Source: Reichenbachiella versicolor (GTDB lineage: Bacteria; Bacteroidota; Bacteroidia; Cytophagales; Cyclobacteriaceae). Taken from it: DNA of 64,000 nt. Numbering within the stretch: position 1 is the stretch's first letter; every line of letters begins with the position of its first letter. Location of the stretch: assembly GCF_003171675.1 (NCBI RefSeq), contig NZ_QFZQ01000001.1, positions 248,001-312,000 on the forward strand, in the 5' to 3' direction. This document shows positions 25,151 through 32,972 of this stretch, one piece after another. The position numbers and the translations under genes are program-made. Under the pieces are notes generated by a model. That model was given only the letters and a program-made list of their open reading frames with translations. It did no database searches and was not told where the DNA came from.

Positions 25151-25362
25151 TTTAACAAGGACGATAGTTTATCAGGCTTTAATTCCATGAACTCAGGTAG
25201 GATTTAAATAAAGTTTTGAAGACACTTTGTATCCATTGACTAGATAGCTTCATGTCAAAAATAAAGATTTAGACAGAGATATAAGCCAAGGTTTTATTAG
25301 TGATAAGAGTAACGCTTTTGAGCTTTGCGCGAGTAGACCTAACTTGTAACAAACTTAAAAGA

Positions 25363-26676
25363 ATGGCAGATACTCAACTCAAACGAACTCTCAGCCCATT
25401 TATGTTATGGGGATTGGGAGTAGGATATGTGATTTCAGGAATGTACTTCGGATGGAATCTAGGTTTAGCTGAAGGGGGGACCTATGGGTTGGCAATAGCG
25501 ACTTTTTTCATCATCATCATGTATGTGACTTTCACTTTTAGTTATACAGAATTGGCTTGTGCTATTCCAAAAGCTGGAGGAGCCTTTGACTATGCAGAGA
25601 AAGGTCTAGGAAGTAAATTGGGGTTTATAGCTGGTATGGCGCAGAACATCGAATTCATTTTTGCGCCTCCTGCGATAGCAATGGCTATTGGAGCCTACCT
25701 AAATCTTCTATACCCTTCTGTAAATGTCATCACTTTTGCAGTCGTAGCTTATGTATTATTTACGCTGATTAATATTTTAGGAGTGAAGCTTGCAGCTTCA
25801 TTTGAGTTGGTGATTACTATTTTGGCAGTAATAGAACTGTTGATTTTTGCTACGGTAACACTTCCAGAGTTTGAACTGTCCAATCTTCAATCTAACCCCT
25901 TACCCAATGGTTTTCAAGGTGTATTTGCAGCCATTCCTTTTGCGATTTGGTTTTTCTTAGCCATAGAAGGCGTGGCTAATGTAGCCGAAGAAGCTATTAA
26001 CCCTCAACGTAGTGTGTTGATAGGTTTTGGAAGTGCCATATTGACTTTAGTGGTACTATGTATATTGACTTTCTTCTCCTCTGTTGGGGTAGCAGGTTGG
26101 GAAGCCGTAGTTTATCCTGAAGGATCTACTGATGCCTCTGACTCTCCATTGCCATTAGCTATTTCCTATGTCATGGGCGAAGGTCATGTGCTCTACAAAA
26201 TGCTAGTAGGAATCGGTCTTTTGGGATTAATAGCTTCTTTTCATGGAATCATTTTGGCAGCAGGAAGATCTACTTTTGAATTTGGAAGAATAGGCAATGC
26301 GCCCAAGATGCTTGGTAAAGCTAATGGTAAGTTTCAAACTCCTATGAATGCATTGTTGGTAAATATGGCAATAGGTATATTGGCCTTATTTACAGGCAAG
26401 ACAGGTGAGATCATCACTATAGCTTGTTTCGGTGCATTGACATTATACATAGTTTCGATGATTGCCTTTTTTGCATTGCGAAAAAACGAACCTGATATGG
26501 ATAGACCATTCAAAGTGCCAGCCTATCCTTTGTTTCCTGCTTTGGCATTGATAATAGCATCTATAGCCTTGGTGGCCATGTTTATCTACAACTTGAAATT
26601 AGGGAGTGTATATCTTGGTATTTTGGGAGGTTCTTATGGTTTATGGTGGCTGATGAAGCGGAATGATCAAGATTAG
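25363..26676 (+). CDS. APC-family permease, ethanolamine permease (Eat) type
   Basis: This 437-residue integral membrane protein has about twelve hydrophobic segments. The N-terminus (LWGLGVGYVISGMYFGWN), the IEFIFAPPAIAMAIGAYLN block, IPFAIWFFLAIEGVANVAEE and the SFHGIILAAGRS segment resemble the ethanolamine permease subfamily of amino acid/polyamine/organocation transporters. ATG 25363 is preferred over the longer start at 25300 because family members begin shortly before LSPFMLWG. It leads a catabolic cluster, so the imported amine is likely the substrate of the GS-like ligase 82 bp downstream. Confidence 0.85.
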   Translation: MADTQLKRTLSPFMLWGLGVGYVISGMYFGWNLGLAEGGTYGLAIATFFIIIMYVTFTFSYTELACAIPKAGGAFDYAEKGLGSKLGFIAGMAQNIEFIFAPPAIAMAIGAYLNLLYPSVNVITFAVVAYVLFTLINILGVKLAASFELVITILAVIELLIFATVTLPEFELSNLQSNPLPNGFQGVFAAIPFAIWFFLAIEGVANVAEEAINPQRSVLIGFGSAILTLVVLCILTFFSSVGVAGWEAVVYPEGSTDASDSPLPLAISYVMGEGHVLYKMLVGIGLLGLIASFHGIILAAGRSTFEFGRIGNAPKMLGKANGKFQTPMNALLVNMAIGILALFTGKTGEIITIACFGALTLYIVSMIAFFALRKNEPDMDRPFKVPAYPLFPALALIIASIALVAMFIYNLKLGSVYLGILGGSYGLWWLMKRNDQD

Positions 26677-26758
26677 ATAGTGAGTTGTTTATGTTTCTTA
26701 ACAAAACCGTAGCATTTAAACCTATTCGCTAAATTTCAAAATAACATATCTTACTAAA

Positions 26759-28123
26759 ATGAACCAACAAGAAATATTAAAACTCATAGAGGGTCATCCT
26801 CATCACAAACTCAAGGTGGCAGTTACAGATATTGATGGAGTGCTTCGAGGCAAGTTTATGCACAAGGATAAGTTCCTGTCAGCTGTCAAATCTGGTTTTG
26901 GGTTTTGTGATGTGGTTTTTGGATGGGATATGAATGATGCCTTATATGAAGACATGGCGATTGAGGCTACAGGTTGGCATTCAGGATTTCCAGATGCTGA
27001 AGCTAGACTAGATGTGAGTACTTTTCGTCAGGTGCCTTGGGAGAATCACGTTCCCTTTGTTTTAGGAGATTTTAGTAAACACGATGGTGAAGATTTTCCA
27101 GCTTGCCCTAGAAGTCTGCTAAAGAAGATAATAGCCAAAGCTGAAGGAATGGGTTTTCAACCTCTCTTTTCTCAAGAGTTTGAGTGGTTCAATTTTGCAG
27201 AGAATAACAGTATATTGGAAGAAAGAGGTTTTACCAACCCTAAGCCATATACGCCTGGTATGTTCGGGTATAGTTTATTGAGAGCCTCTGAGAATAGTGA
27301 TTATTTTCATGATTTATTTGACCTGTTGACAGAATTTGGTGTTCCATTGGAGGGGCTGCATACCGAAACAGGACCTGGAGTTTTTGAAGCTGCAATACAA
27401 TACTCTGACATACTAGAAGCGGCAGACAGAGCTGTTTTATTCAAAACAGGAGTAAAGGAAATTGCTTATAAACATGGTATTATGGCCAGCTTTATGGCAA
27501 AGCAAACTGCTGATTTGCCTGGATGCAGCGGACATGTTCATCAAAGCCTTTGGGATGCGGATAAGAAAAGGAATTTATTCTTTGATAGCGCTCATCAGGA
27601 TCAAATTAGTGAGGTCATGAGGCAATATATAGCAGGTCAATTATTTTGTCTACCATATATCCTTCCCATGTTAGCGCCGACCGTGAACAGCTATAAACGA
27701 TTGGTAGAAGGTGCTTGGGCACCGACGACTTTGACATGGGGTGTAGATAATAGAACTGTTGCTTTGAGAGCGCTGCCATTAGGAGAGAAATCTTCGCGTA
27801 TTGAAACTAGAGTAGTAGGCTCAGATGTAAATCCTTATTTGGCAATGGCAGCTTGTCTAGCAAGTGGGATATATGGGATTGAAAAGCGATTGAAATTGGA
27901 TACTCAACAAACTGTAGGTAACGGATATAAGGACTTACAAAACGGAGTACTTCCAAGCAATCTATTGGAAGCTACCGATTACATGAAATCATCTGATGTG
28001 GCAAATGAACTCTTTGGAGAAGCTTTTGTCGATCATTTTACTAAAACCAGAATCTGGGAATGGAAGGAGTACTCTAAACATGTCTCAGATTGGGAAATAA
28101 AACGATACTTTGAAATAATTTAA
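26759..28123 (+). CDS. Glutamine-synthetase-like gamma-glutamyl-amine ligase
   Basis: This 454-residue protein has the GS catalytic fold. Metal-binding Glu residues lie in FSQEFEWFNF and HTETGPGVFEAA, the nucleotide/His motif is GCSGHVHQSLWD, and the substrate loop with Arg is RLVEGAWAPTTLTWG followed by DNRTVALR. It resembles the GS-like enzymes that glutamylate amines (PuuA, GlnA3/GlnA4, IpuC) rather than housekeeping GlnA. With an ethanolamine-type permease upstream and Fe-ADH, hydrolase and ALDH downstream, the most economical role is ATP-dependent formation of gamma-glutamyl-ethanolamide from glutamate and ethanolamine. Another short amino alcohol cannot be excluded. Confidence 0.82.
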   Translation: MNQQEILKLIEGHPHHKLKVAVTDIDGVLRGKFMHKDKFLSAVKSGFGFCDVVFGWDMNDALYEDMAIEATGWHSGFPDAEARLDVSTFRQVPWENHVPFVLGDFSKHDGEDFPACPRSLLKKIIAKAEGMGFQPLFSQEFEWFNFAENNSILEERGFTNPKPYTPGMFGYSLLRASENSDYFHDLFDLLTEFGVPLEGLHTETGPGVFEAAIQYSDILEAADRAVLFKTGVKEIAYKHGIMASFMAKQTADLPGCSGHVHQSLWDADKKRNLFFDSAHQDQISEVMRQYIAGQLFCLPYILPMLAPTVNSYKRLVEGAWAPTTLTWGVDNRTVALRALPLGEKSSRIETRVVGSDVNPYLAMAACLASGIYGIEKRLKLDTQQTVGNGYKDLQNGVLPSNLLEATDYMKSSDVANELFGEAFVDHFTKTRIWEWKEYSKHVSDWEIKRYFEII

Positions 28124-28128
28124 TAAAC

Positions 28129-29286
28129 GTGAGCATCATCAACTTTTCTCAAACTTACCAGTACAACTTTCCAACAACTATTCGCTTTGGAGCAGGTGTT
28201 ATTAAAGAACTTTCAGCCTATCTAAAGGATAATAACTTGTCCAGTCCTTTGATTGTTACCGACCCGACAGTGGCTGAATTACCTTTTCTGAAGGAGATTG
28301 TCAGTGATCTAAAATTAGCAAGATTGAAGCCTGACGTTTTTTGTGAGATTAGCAAAAACCCTGTCAAGTCTGATGTGCTTAAAGGGGGAGAGGCCTACAA
28401 AGAGACTAAGAGTGATTGTATTATCGGTATCGGTGGAGGAGCTGCTTTAGACGTGTCAAGAGCAGTTGTACTTAGAGTAAATCATAAGCGAGACTTGTTT
28501 GATTATGATGATTTGATCGGAGGAGATAAATATGTGACAGAAGAAGTTCCTCATTTCATTACTGTGCCGACGACTTCAGGTACGGGTAGCGAGGTCGGAC
28601 GATCAGCCGTGATATCAGAGGACGAGTCTAAGAAGAAAAGAATTCTATTTAGTCCTAAGTTGTTAGCAAAGATTGTATTCGCAGATCCAGAGTTGACGAT
28701 GAATCTACCTGCTTTTGTGACAGCTGCGACTGGTATGGACGCATTGACTCATAATATAGAAGCTTATTTATCGAAAGGATTTCATCCAATGTGCGATGGA
28801 ATAGCTCTTGAAGGAATAGCTTTGATAGGCCAGTCTATCGAACAAGCTACTAAAGATGCTACCTTAGAATCTAGGGCAAAGATGCTTTTAGCTTCTTTGA
28901 TGGGAGCAGTAGCGTTTCAGAAAGGGTTGGGAATTGTCCATAGTTTGTCTCATCCGTTATCTAGTTTATTAGATACTCATCATGGCATTGCGAATGCTGT
29001 TAACTTACCTTATGGCCTTCAGTATAACTACGACGGCTTTGAAGATAAATTCGAAAAGATGGCTGTCGCATTTGGACTACCCAATGGATCGGGTGATAAG
29101 TTCATAGATCATATTTTTGAACTGAATACAAACCTGTTTTTACCGACTAAATTGACGGGGTTAGATGTAAAACCAGAACATGTAGAGCCATTGTCCGATT
29201 TGGCAGTCCAAGACTTCTGTCTTCCTTCCAATCCTAAGCCTGCAACTAAGGCTGATTTTATCAAAATATATAATAGCGCACTGTGA
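28129..29286 (+). CDS. Iron-containing (group III) alcohol dehydrogenase
   Basis: This 385-residue protein has the Fe-ADH fold: the NAD(P)-binding IIGIGGGAALDVSRA, the TVPTTSGTGSEVGR motif and metal ligands in MDALTHNIEAY, VHSLSHPLSS and DTHHGIANAV. It starts with GTG 28129, 5 bp after the GS-like gene, and overlaps the next gene by 4 bp. In the proposed pathway it oxidises the alcohol group of the gamma-glutamylated amino alcohol to an aldehyde. That step would not be needed for putrescine, where an FAD oxidase (PuuB) is used instead. Confidence 0.88.
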   Translation: MSIINFSQTYQYNFPTTIRFGAGVIKELSAYLKDNNLSSPLIVTDPTVAELPFLKEIVSDLKLARLKPDVFCEISKNPVKSDVLKGGEAYKETKSDCIIGIGGGAALDVSRAVVLRVNHKRDLFDYDDLIGGDKYVTEEVPHFITVPTTSGTGSEVGRSAVISEDESKKKRILFSPKLLAKIVFADPELTMNLPAFVTAATGMDALTHNIEAYLSKGFHPMCDGIALEGIALIGQSIEQATKDATLESRAKMLLASLMGAVAFQKGLGIVHSLSHPLSSLLDTHHGIANAVNLPYGLQYNYDGFEDKFEKMAVAFGLPNGSGDKFIDHIFELNTNLFLPTKLTGLDVKPEHVEPLSDLAVQDFCLPSNPKPATKADFIKIYNSAL

Positions 29287-30023
29287 TCAAGATAGGAATA
29301 TCAGCGGCTTTTGAATATCCTAATCCTGAGCGGACAGTTTTTGGCCCTAAAACACTCAGTTATGTAGAAAATGACATGGCTCGCTATGTCGCTAGGAAGG
29401 GTGTTTTGCCTGTCATGATCCCAGATGTAGAAGATGGTATCTTAGACGATATACTTCAAGAGATGGATGGGTTTATTATTCAAGGCGGAGCAGACATTGC
29501 ACCCGAGACATATGGAGAAGAGCCAATAGGTAGATGGTTGGGAGATGGTGTACGTGATCAATACGAGTTACAAATCATTGATTATGCTGTCAAAAACAAT
29601 AAGCCAATTTTTGGAATATGTCGTGGTTTCCAATTGATGAATGTCTACTTCGGAGGGACGCTCTATCAGGATACTTTGACCCAGCGTGAAGGTAGTGAAG
29701 ATCACCGTTCTTCTGAGGAATACGATTCAAAGCATCATCCTGTATTTTTCACAGAAGATAATTTCCTCTCCAATATTTATGCAGGTGTAGAAAGCCCTCA
29801 TATCAATAGTATTCATCATCAGGCAATCAAAGACTTGGCTAATGACCTTGAGGTCTGGGCGACTTCGCCTGATGGATTGATTGAAGCTTTTGGAGTGAAA
29901 GGGCAACCAGATGGTAGATGTTTTGGAGTACAATGGCATCCAGAGTTTTCTCATACACTAGGTGAAAAAATTATCAACCCAGATATCCTTATAGAAGAAT
30001 TTTTAAAACACTGTCAGAAATGA
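29283..30023 (+). CDS. Class I glutamine amidotransferase-like hydrolase (PuuD/peptidase C26 type)
   Basis: This 246-residue stand-alone GATase-1 domain has the nucleophile Cys in FGICRGFQLMN, a catalytic His in VQWHPEF and the family-typical DGFIIQGGADIAPETYG. Relatives hydrolyse gamma-glutamyl bonds, for example gamma-glutamyl-GABA. Here it would release glutamate from the oxidised gamma-glutamyl product, which is glycine if the start is ethanolamine. The GTG start overlaps the upstream TGA, and the 3' end overlaps the ALDH ATG, so the three genes are translationally coupled. Confidence 0.87.
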   Translation: MIKIGISAAFEYPNPERTVFGPKTLSYVENDMARYVARKGVLPVMIPDVEDGILDDILQEMDGFIIQGGADIAPETYGEEPIGRWLGDGVRDQYELQIIDYAVKNNKPIFGICRGFQLMNVYFGGTLYQDTLTQREGSEDHRSSEEYDSKHHPVFFTEDNFLSNIYAGVESPHINSIHHQAIKDLANDLEVWATSPDGLIEAFGVKGQPDGRCFGVQWHPEFSHTLGEKIINPDILIEEFLKHCQK

Positions 30024-31384
30024 TCATTATTAACCCCGCAACTGAGCAGGAAATAAATACACTATCAGAAGACACTCCATCGAAAGTAGCAGAAAGATTA
30101 CAAACCCTTCGAAATGGCCAAAAAGCTTGGCAAGCATTAGGAGTTTCAAAAAGGTTAGAAATTATTACTCGTTTCGGTGAATTAATCAAATCTAATACAG
30201 AAGAGCTGGCTAATATTTTAACCTCAGAGACAGGAAAGCCAATTCAACAATCCAGAAACGAAATCAACGGAGCACATAATCGCATCGATCACCTTCAGAC
30301 TAATGCCGAAAAATGGTTGGCAAGTGAAAAACTAGTGGAAGAAGGTCAGACGTTAGAGTCTATTCAGTATGAGCCACTGGGGGTAGTAGCTAATATCTCT
30401 GCTTGGAACTTTCCATACAATGTTGGTTACAATGTCTTTCTGTATGCATTAGTAGCAGGTAATGCGGTGCTCTATAAACCTTCTGAATTCTCATCTTTAA
30501 CAGGGCTAGAGTTTGAAAAGTACCTCCATCAAGCAGGAGTACCCAAAGATGTTTTTATGACAGCTATTGGGGGTAAGGAGGTAGGACAAGCTATTCTAGA
30601 ATTAGACTTTGACGGTTACTTTTTTACAGGTTCGTACGCTACAGGTAAGCATATTATCCAAACGGTAGCCCCTAAGATGGTTCCAGTTCAACTGGAGTTG
30701 GGAGGTAAAGATCCTTTGTATATCATGGATGATGTAGCTGATATCAAGCAATCAGCCATCAACGCCGCTGAAGGGGCTTTTTACAATAATGGTCAAAGTT
30801 GCTGTGCAGTGGAAAGGATATATGTCCATGAAAAAATATATGATGAATTTGTCGAAGAACTTGTCAAAGAAGTCAAGGGGTATAAAATAGGGGATCCCAA
30901 AAATAAAGACACTTTCATCGGTGCTATAACTAGACCACAGCAGATCGAAATATTAGATAATCAGGTAAATGAAGCGTTGGAGAAAGGAGCTCAAAAATTG
31001 ACTGGAGGCAATGCCCTTGAAGGTGTAGGCTATTTTTACGAACCAGTTGTGCTAGTAGGTGTAAATCATGACATGAAAATCATGAAAGAAGAATCTTTCG
31101 GTCCCATCATAGGTATTCAAAAAGTGAGTTCAGATGAAGAAGCCATTGATCTGATGAAAGATACAGCGTATGGTTTGACTTCAGCTGTTTTTTCTGCTGA
31201 TGAAGAGCGTGCAAAGGCGGTTCTTTCTGAAATGAATACAGGTACTGTGTATTGGAACTGCTGTGACCGTGTAAGCCCAAACTTACCTTGGTCGGGCAGA
31301 GGCAACTCAGGAGTAGGCTCAACATTAAGTAGTCAAGGTATAAGAGCTTTTGTACAGCCGAAAGCTTATCAAATGAGACCTTGA
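30020..31384 (+). CDS. NAD(P)-dependent aldehyde dehydrogenase
   Basis: This 454-residue ALDH-superfamily protein has cofactor and catalytic motifs EPLGVVANISAWNFPYN, LELGGKDPLYI (general-base Glu) and nucleophile Cys in NNGQSCCAVER. The subfamily looks like succinate-semialdehyde or gamma-aminobutyraldehyde-type dehydrogenases. As the last gene of the coupled set it should oxidise the gamma-glutamyl aldehyde to the acid before hydrolysis by the PuuD-like enzyme. Confidence 0.9.
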   Translation: MIIINPATEQEINTLSEDTPSKVAERLQTLRNGQKAWQALGVSKRLEIITRFGELIKSNTEELANILTSETGKPIQQSRNEINGAHNRIDHLQTNAEKWLASEKLVEEGQTLESIQYEPLGVVANISAWNFPYNVGYNVFLYALVAGNAVLYKPSEFSSLTGLEFEKYLHQAGVPKDVFMTAIGGKEVGQAILELDFDGYFFTGSYATGKHIIQTVAPKMVPVQLELGGKDPLYIMDDVADIKQSAINAAEGAFYNNGQSCCAVERIYVHEKIYDEFVEELVKEVKGYKIGDPKNKDTFIGAITRPQQIEILDNQVNEALEKGAQKLTGGNALEGVGYFYEPVVLVGVNHDMKIMKEESFGPIIGIQKVSSDEEAIDLMKDTAYGLTSAVFSADEERAKAVLSEMNTGTVYWNCCDRVSPNLPWSGRGNSGVGSTLSSQGIRAFVQPKAYQMRP

Positions 31385-31550: not shown

Positions 31551-32972
31551 ATGAGAGTTATCATAGTCCTTATTCTAATTATACCTCCTTTTTTGTCTTT
31601 TAGTCAGTGTCCTACGGGTGATTATACAGGGAATATTTCTCTAACAGCTGACTGTACTATTTCATCCAATATCACTGTTACTGGTGATATTACATTTAAT
31701 AGCACATCTAAGCTTACTATCAACCCAGGAGTTACTTTGACGATTTCGGGTGAATTGTCTAGTAGTTATAATTCTGGGGTATTAGAAATAGATGGTGGAG
31801 GTATTCTTAATACAGGAGGAAGAGTTTCCGTGGGTCAGTTAAGTTCAATGACATTTGATAATGTTACTGCTTCAATGAATAACACTTCTTCTTCTGCTGT
31901 GATTAGTATGGATCAAAGTACATTGATTTTAGAAAATGGAGCTTCTTTTACGGTAGTTCAAGGTAATTTCAGATCAGCCAATGCTGCATCTCTCAGTGTC
32001 GTAAACTCAAGCCTTACTGTTTCGGATGGTAATCTCTTGATTGACTATCAGGGAACTTTTAATTTAACCAATTCTAATTTGACTCTTTCTAATGGGGATT
32101 TTCAAACAGAAAATGAGACAGTTTTAACTATAACAGGCAGTAACCTAAGTGTAGATGGAAATATGAATGTTGACTACCTGTCAGATATGACAATAAATGG
32201 AGGTAGTAATGTATCTATTACTGGAGATTTTAATAATGGGATTGATCCTACTGGTACTACAGTTACTAATGGAGATTTAATAGTAGATAATGCAACTTTT
32301 AGTATAGGAGGTGACCTAAATAATCAATACGGAAGTTCTGTAACAGTTGATGGAGGAGGAGCAATAACAGTATCAGGTTCAATTAACAATTTTGGAACAG
32401 CGACAATTTCTACTCCAGGAGGATCGGTTACCCTACCTATAGAATTAATAGCATTTGCAGCTCGTCAGGAAGGTAATGCTGTAGAAGTCAATTGGTCTAC
32501 AGCGTCAGAACTAGATAATGAACATTTTTATTTGTATCGATCTACAAATGGAGTTGATTACGTGCAGGTGGCAGAGATAGATGGAGCTGGAACGTCAAGC
32601 ACAATGAAAGAGTATTCTTATAAGGATTCACCTTCTAGCTCAGGAAGATACTATTATAAGCTTAAGCAAGTAGACTATAGTGGAGTAAGTGAAGAGTTCT
32701 CTCCTGTAGGTGTTTATTACGAACTTCTCTTCGATGGAGTTCAGCTGTTTCCAAACCCTACTAAGGATTTCATAGAAGTAGCAGGAGTGACCGAGTCAGG
32801 TTTAAACAATATTTCCATTACCTCTGTAGATGGAAGCTTTGGATATTCTCTTAGCGCTGATTTCGACAATGGAACTGCTAAAATCAATTTGGCATTCTTG
32901 CCCTCAGGATTGTATGTACTACATTTTGAAAGTGCTGGAGTAAAACAGAATTATAGAATATCTAAGATTTAA
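31551..32972 (+). CDS. Secreted T9SS protein with beta-helix-like repeats
   Basis: This 473-residue protein has a signal peptide (MRVIIVLILIIPPFLSFSQ) and a Ser/Thr/Asn-rich region (about 25-295) of short strand-like repeats such as NSNLTLSNGDFQTEN and GSNLSVDGNMNVD, suggesting a beta-solenoid. An FN3-like module follows (LPIELIAFAARQEGNAVEV ... YYYKLKQVDYSG). The C-terminus is a type A T9SS sorting domain (LFPNPTKDFIEV ... LPSGLYVLHFES ... RISKI). It is probably a cell-surface or released protein of unknown ligand. No enzymatic domain is visible. Confidence 0.8.
   Translation: MRVIIVLILIIPPFLSFSQCPTGDYTGNISLTADCTISSNITVTGDITFNSTSKLTINPGVTLTISGELSSSYNSGVLEIDGGGILNTGGRVSVGQLSSMTFDNVTASMNNTSSSAVISMDQSTLILENGASFTVVQGNFRSANAASLSVVNSSLTVSDGNLLIDYQGTFNLTNSNLTLSNGDFQTENETVLTITGSNLSVDGNMNVDYLSDMTINGGSNVSITGDFNNGIDPTGTTVTNGDLIVDNATFSIGGDLNNQYGSSVTVDGGGAITVSGSINNFGTATISTPGGSVTLPIELIAFAARQEGNAVEVNWSTASELDNEHFYLYRSTNGVDYVQVAEIDGAGTSSTMKEYSYKDSPSSSGRYYYKLKQVDYSGVSEEFSPVGVYYELLFDGVQLFPNPTKDFIEVAGVTESGLNNISITSVDGSFGYSLSADFDNGTAKINLAFLPSGLYVLHFESAGVKQNYRISKI

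Follow-up and report, generated by a model that had tools for sequence, protein, structure and literature searches.

A five-gene operon of Reichenbachiella versicolor that probably encodes B12-independent ethanolamine catabolism by gamma-glutamylation

The stretch of Reichenbachiella versicolor DNA analysed here (64,000 nucleotides of contig NZ_QFZQ01000001.1, positions 248,001 to 312,000; hereafter, the window) contains a five-gene operon that encodes an Eat-type permease, a ligase resembling glutamine synthetase (GS), an iron-containing alcohol dehydrogenase (Fe-ADH), a class C26 hydrolase related to PuuD, and an aldehyde dehydrogenase (ALDH). To judge by sequence comparison, this operon probably represents a B12-independent pathway of ethanolamine catabolism. 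In the proposed pathway, Eat would import ethanolamine, and the GS-like ligase, using ATP, would join it to glutamate through the gamma-carboxyl group, the amine being thereby protected. Fe-ADH would convert the resulting gamma-glutamylethanolamide to the aldehyde, and ALDH would convert the aldehyde to gamma-glutamylglycine, from which the C26 hydrolase would release glycine and glutamate. An earlier note on this DNA had described five genes on one strand, the last three overlapping by 4 bp, and had suggested import, gamma-glutamylation, conversion of an alcohol through an aldehyde to an acid, and hydrolysis. The cluster is confirmed at 25363-31384 of the forward strand, and the suggested steps fit both the gene set and the catalytic residues kept in it. 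We infer the substrate, each reaction with its place in the order, and the cofactors from features that are observed directly: gene content and order, conserved residues, phylogeny, and the differing catabolic modules found beside closely related permeases.

Breakdown of membrane lipids yields ethanolamine as one of its major products. Through a B12-free route in many Bacteroidota genera, a large group would join the organisms that can use this compound without the Eut lyase, and the five ordered genes would provide a marker set for metagenomes. The route itself is already known from other phyla; what differs here is the ligase clade, the transporter, and the C26 hydrolase that replaces the PF05013 family. 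A description of the five-gene cluster in Bacteroidota was not found in the open-access literature, and a ligase of this branch together with such a permease and hydrolase looks previously undescribed in the phylum. A broader proposition, for which the case is about evenly balanced in our opinion, is that Bacteroidota possess a second, separately evolved pathway of ethanolamine gamma-glutamylation built on a distinct ligase clade; that one permease lineage exchanges catabolic modules (EutBC, ligases of types A and C, ligases of class D) even among close relatives; and that a single ecological function is served by either B12-dependent or B12-free use, each excluding the other.

Conservation of the five-gene set

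The first line of evidence is the recurrence of the five genes. Among the best 80 of at least 571 confirmed ligase matches (the named loci, several of which are cut by contig ends), at least 43 carry all five genes on one strand and in the same order; for this reason, the grouping is not due to chance. The four enzymes are present in 46 of these 80 loci. A looser per-locus rule retains 45 loci, all ordered permease, ligase, Fe-ADH, hydrolase, ALDH, two of which span more than 8 kb. The full set is found among the best 80 loci in Pedobacter, Chitinophaga, Sphingobacterium, Parapedobacter, Solitalea and Flavihumibacter; instead of type A, as the ligase class of the window operon is termed here, all nine Mucilaginibacter-titled loci among these 80 have a ligase of type B.

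A second sample comprised 98 genomes, the window's own included (handles starting with G and L denote genomes and loci, respectively). Searched with the ligase, 77 of them matched at an E value no higher than 0.001, mostly weakly and in reading frames of about 720 residues. Among 20 regions taken, the five-gene set is complete in three (L035, L036 and L037) and partial in two (L043 and L051), and in L034 the four enzymes stand together with the permease 7 kb upstream.

The second line of evidence is the conservation of catalytic positions in the three enzymes that follow the ligase. Fe-ADH residues D204, H208, H271 and H285, which we take to be the metal ligands, are invariant in all 45 loci. 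The same is true of the hydrolase equivalents of PuuD C114, H222 and E224, presumably the catalytic positions, and of the catalytic Glu of ALDH; the ALDH Cys is kept in 44 of the 45 loci, the only deviation being a gap.

Permease lineage and the distribution of ligase and EutB

At E 0.001, the genome yielded no second match to the permease. The protein is 46-47% identical to the Eat proteins linked to EutBC, the B12-dependent ethanolamine ammonia-lyase, on Thioclava and Pararhizobium plasmids, vs 24% to PuuP. In three of seven congeners (G001, G003 and G005), an Eat 69-71% identical to that of the window lies downstream of EutBC in a three-gene run, EutB being recognized in each of them by PF06751, and EutC in G001 by Pfam. 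The Eat of G035, 73% identical, stands beside a Chromohalobacter-type ligase that shares 35% identity with that of the window, a short-chain dehydrogenase, an ALDH and a glutamine amidotransferase; the permease beside a ligase of the same type is 67% (G013) or 65% (G049) identical to that of the window. All six ligases of this class D are 68-100% identical to that of G035 and 32-35% identical to that of the window. In G035, G013 and G049 the permease adjoins the ligase; in G012 and G069 it lies on another contig, and in G039 it is split over contigs. In the permease tree, for which a Thermomicrobium permease served as the outgroup, a 40-row clade (SH-aLRT, the approximate likelihood-ratio support, 99) unites the Bacteroidota permeases linked to ligases A, C and D, the EutBC-linked permeases of the three congeners, and four unlinked permeases. 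Both the permease tree and the ligase tree place the window in one seven-row set, and thus the two genes travel together.

The distribution of these genes among the 98 genomes agrees with a division between ligase and lyase. Eat was found in 29 genomes (E 1e-40 or better), EutB in 16, and a type A, C, D or E ligase in 18. All 18 ligase genomes have Eat, vs 11 of the 80 others (p = 1.7e-12). Among the 29 Eat genomes, EutB is present in none of the 18 with a ligase vs 8 of the 11 others (p = 3.8e-5, a post hoc figure), and three have neither. EutB adjoins Eat in G001, G003 and G005 and, by coordinates, in G043, G076 and G087, and does not adjoin it in G082 and G097. The class A count includes G058 (GS, permease and Fe-ADH on a 5.4-kb contig), G061 (permease on another contig) and G051 (no PuuD seen, and a permease of 49% identity encoded on a different contig); class E consists of G023, the permease of which is 38% identical. 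The EutB matches include one fragment (G009). Three others (L191, L192 and L193, in G054, G008 and G090) lie within frames of about 800 residues, possibly EutB fused to another domain.

The earlier note had observed that no lyase genes lie nearby, and this holds genome-wide: EutB gave no match in the window's genome, in a search that matched E. coli among 14 control genomes. The note's choice of ethanolamine as the substrate is likewise favoured, because close relatives of the permease are paired with EutBC (three congeners) or with Chromohalobacter-type ligases (three other genera), and because ligase and EutB are never found together in Eat genomes. As some congeners carry EutBC and another the ligase operon, the choice between B12-dependent and ATP-dependent use could be compared in sister species.

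Ligase clade, known systems and other substrates

Classified only by its sequence family, the ligase would pass for a glutamine synthetase. It scores below every NCBIfam equivalog cut-off, however: 214 bits vs a cut-off of 429 for the GlnA model, 231 vs 470 for type III GS, and 212.5 vs 650 for gamma-glutamylputrescine synthetase. In E. coli GlnA numbering, the metal, arginine and histidine positions of GS (E129, E131, E212, E220, H269, H271, E357, R321, R339, R344 and R359) are unchanged in all 33 type-A rows. In the same 33 rows, W and F replace the ammonia-site residues E327 and Y179, respectively, and P stands in place of N264, which binds glutamate in GS. The column of D50 contains D in 31 rows and E in two, that of the window among them; this region is poorly aligned, and nothing is drawn from it. 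Loss of E327, D50 and Y179 was described for GlnA4 and PauA7 by Krysenko et al. (PMC6529630).

A tree of 34 hand-picked rows separates three clades. One is that of the window ligase (100/100), with proteobacterial members among its rows; the others are the Chromohalobacter-type clade (100/100) and a pair of proteins annotated as IpuC (100/99). Membership of the window ligase in the IpuC group was therefore rejected. IpuC and the Chromohalobacter type tie as the sister of the window clade (support 35/0, approximately unbiased p 0.505). Given this tie, the window clade may have been recruited separately for ethanolamine. Another GS tree covered 42 of the 80 named loci, also hand-picked (26 of type A, some with incomplete sets, 9 of type B and 7 others).

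The closest known counterpart is the Chromohalobacter, Agrobacterium and Phaeobacter operon (EtoVWX, ETAGA, GAADDH, GETADH, GGAH), which likewise involves PF00120, PF00465 and PF00171 and the same proposed steps to gamma-glutamylglycine. According to the review PMC9397018, these steps were also proposed for C. salexigens, with PF00120, PF00465, PF00171 and PF05013; PMC10132767 calls the pathway demonstrated in Chromohalobacter and Agrobacterium and reports induction of the Phaeobacter operon, at the proteome level, on phosphorylethanolamine. The window operon differs from it in four respects: Eat, of the amino acid-polyamine-organocation (APC) superfamily, replaces the tripartite ATP-independent periplasmic (TRAP) transporter EtoVWX; the RpiR regulator is not among the five genes; the hydrolase belongs to PF07722 (C26) and not to PF05013; and the ligase falls into a clade separate from the EtoX-linked one (100/100 each). 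The counterpart was compared through plasmid pSC52_1 of Rhodobacteraceae SC52, the cluster of which (RpiR, N-formylglutamate amidohydrolase, TRAP, GS-type ligase, ALDH, Fe-ADH) has the layout given for Phaeobacter in PMC10132767. Its TRAP binding protein scores 485 bits against 4UAB, identified in PMC12410723 as Csal_0678 with bound ethanolamine. The Fe-ADH of this cluster is 39% identical to that of the window.

Bit scores against 5dm3, which we take to be Csal_0679, are 725 for the SC52 ligase, 446 for that of G035 and 239 for that of the window; against 11zs, the latter two score 496 and 277. In PMC5299690, Csal0679 is listed as a putative GS.

Two loci extend the Chromohalobacter-type picture. 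On a Paracoccus pantotrophus plasmid (L153:7088-15068), N-formylglutamate amidohydrolase, ligase, ALDH and Fe-ADH lead directly into bhcBCD, annotated as the beta-hydroxyaspartate cycle, an arrangement that fits glycine as the product. On Sinorhizobium meliloti pSymB (L154:5407-12014), another amino acid permease (best model TIGR00907, below cut-off) takes the place of TRAP or Eat beside Chromohalobacter-type enzymes.

The ligase step was shown in Streptomyces, where GlnA4 is a gamma-glutamylethanolamide synthetase in vitro (PMC6529630); for Streptomyces, too, the whole route had already been proposed. According to the published descriptions in PMC6529630 and PMC9397018, the GlnA4 cluster (SCO1610-1615) resembles the window operon in ALDH and amidotransferase, but has a short-chain dehydrogenase where the window has Fe-ADH (PMC6529630), and its permease is reported in the same paper to be without similarity to Eat. 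The Eat and EutBC system shares with the window a related permease and the proposed substrate, but its lyase chemistry is different.

Several observations weigh against ethanolamine as the substrate. To the known type of ethanolamine ligase, the window ligase shows no more than 35-36% identity, vs 38-39% to IpuC-annotated proteins; a characterised enzyme of its clade was not found; and the active-site residues checked fail to separate type A from type B ligases. Relatives within the clade adjoin a spermidine/putrescine ATP-binding cassette (ABC) transporter, or a kinase-like protein and a phosphatase, and, judging by these changing genomic partners, the clade is not confined to a single substrate. 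Because the partners vary, the ethanolamine assignment is strongest for ligases with a linked Eat. The EutBC-linked permeases of G043, G076 and G087 are just 44-45% identical to that of the window and fall outside the 40-row clade, with the proteobacterial ones. When only the 20 genomes that carry a close permease are considered, EutB is present in 0/16 ligase genomes vs 3/4 others (p = 0.0035), and p rises to 0.11 when the three congeners are counted once; moreover, the exclusion tests were framed after looking at the data, and their statistics ignore kinship. Finally, a dedicated regulator is absent from the five-gene operon.

The most probable alternative is that the logic of the pathway is as proposed, but that it serves mainly a different primary amino alcohol, such as 3-aminopropanol or alaninol, or a mixture, with gamma-glutamyl-beta-alanine or gamma-glutamyl-alanine as the product. 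We regard this as unlikely. The best-scoring family of the window Fe-ADH is the 4-hydroxybutyrate dehydrogenase model, below its cut-off, which speaks for this alternative, as does the slightly greater proximity of the ligase to IpuC-annotated proteins; but that family also ranks first for the Fe-ADH of the EtoX-linked SC52 cluster, the two ligase groups tie as nearest clade, and the close permease relatives are linked to EutBC and to Chromohalobacter-type ligases. The IpuC clusters of Paenarthrobacter aurescens TC1, where an annotated gamma-glutamylisopropylamide synthetase has amidotransferases nearby, differ from the window operon in their annotated P450 and ferredoxin genes as well as in ligase clade.

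A polyamine route of the Puu kind, acting on putrescine or a similar compound, is far less credible. The E. coli Puu pathway follows the same logic of ligation, oxidation and release, its PuuD is 34% identical to the window hydrolase over 221 residues, the ligase is related to PuuA (29% identity), and some relatives in the ligase clade adjoin spermidine/putrescine transporters. The Puu pathway, however, relies on a PuuB oxidase and a PuuE transaminase, neither of which has a counterpart among the five genes; it offers no step to an alcohol dehydrogenase; the putrescine ligase model is missed by a wide margin; and the permease is much closer to EutBC-linked Eat than to PuuP. The least probable reading, ordinary nitrogen metabolism with a glutamine synthetase beside unrelated dehydrogenases, has PF00120 membership in its favour, but the scores far under the GlnA cut-offs, the replaced ammonia-site residues, the five-gene order kept in the named loci, and two further PF00120 matches in the genome, one of which lies inside a 720-residue frame and is likely the true GS, speak against it. 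On scores, residues and gene content, both the Puu and the plain GS readings were rejected.

Variant loci, operon layout and flanking genes

Ligases of the window clade also occur in other settings. In type C (L040:7405-11487 and L041:7402-11532), Eat and ligase are followed by a GFO/IDH/MocA oxidoreductase that replaces Fe-ADH, hydrolase and ALDH; it is recognized by Pfam in L041 and by similarity in L040, and is missing in L042, so that two of the three type C loci have it. At L055:4753-14974 and L063:5486-13468, window-clade ligases stand beside a pyridoxal phosphate-dependent aminotransferase, a P1 peptidase and an ABC transporter annotated as of spermidine/putrescine type, which suggests that these ligases may act on another amine. 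On Legionella and Photobacterium plasmids, a window-clade GS accompanies ALDH and Fe-ADH, in Legionella also with a gene annotated as GMP synthase.

Type B is a trio of a window-clade ligase, an unannotated protein of about 347 residues and a NagD-like phosphatase of the haloacid dehalogenase family, with no Eat-like permease in the stretch (L136:9001-12364; L045-L048, from congeners; L081, L098, L114, L119, L120, L127, L138, L140 and L143-L146). A Pfam scan of the 347-residue protein gave no match. Its predicted model (pLDDT, the model confidence score, 64.5) resembles enzymes of the APH/choline-kinase fold: the best Foldseek hit is 6sui (E 8.7e-6), and the best VIA Z score is 12.2 (2q83 and 3i0o), with 10.4 for the aminopropanol kinase 6ef6. 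Type B thus resembles a ligase-kinase-phosphatase trio, with the kinase assigned by predicted fold. Of the 98 genomes, eight contain a type B ligase, and six of these eight have EutB.

Table 1. Genes of the operon in the window
Feature	Position	Strand	Family evidence
Eat-type ethanolamine permease (APC superfamily)	25363..26676	+	TIGR00908, 457 bits vs cut-off 381.75
GS-like ligase, proposed gamma-glutamylethanolamide synthetase	26759..28123	+	PF00120, 320 bits
Iron-containing alcohol dehydrogenase, proposed gamma-glutamylethanolamide dehydrogenase	28129..29286, GTG start	+	PF00465 and PF25137
PuuD-like class C26 hydrolase, proposed gamma-glutamylglycine hydrolase	29283..30023, GTG start	+	PF07722, 193 bits
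Aldehyde dehydrogenase, proposed gamma-glutamyl-aminoacetaldehyde dehydrogenase	30020..31384	+	PF00171, 432 bits

The first three genes of the operon (Table 1) are separated by 82 bp and 5 bp, and two overlaps of 4 bp join Fe-ADH, hydrolase and ALDH. The permease frame opens with a GTG at 25300; since the family model aligns from residue 4 as counted from the ATG at 25363, the shorter version is the likely gene. The G+C content of the five genes (0.40-0.41) is slightly above that of the whole window (0.373). Promoter and terminator scans were near chance, with 22 vs 17.1 and 5 vs 4.1 expected, respectively. The flanking regulator is CRP/FNR-like and divergently oriented. Acquisition of the operon by the lineage of the window was considered: congeners G001 and G007 retain the response-regulator/kinase pair that precedes the operon, but the genes that they carry beyond this pair differ from those at 15-42 kb of the window. 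On the 3' side of the operon, at 31551-32972, lies a gene for a T/N/S-rich repeat protein, the C-terminus of which resembles, by eye, a Bacteroidota sorting tail.

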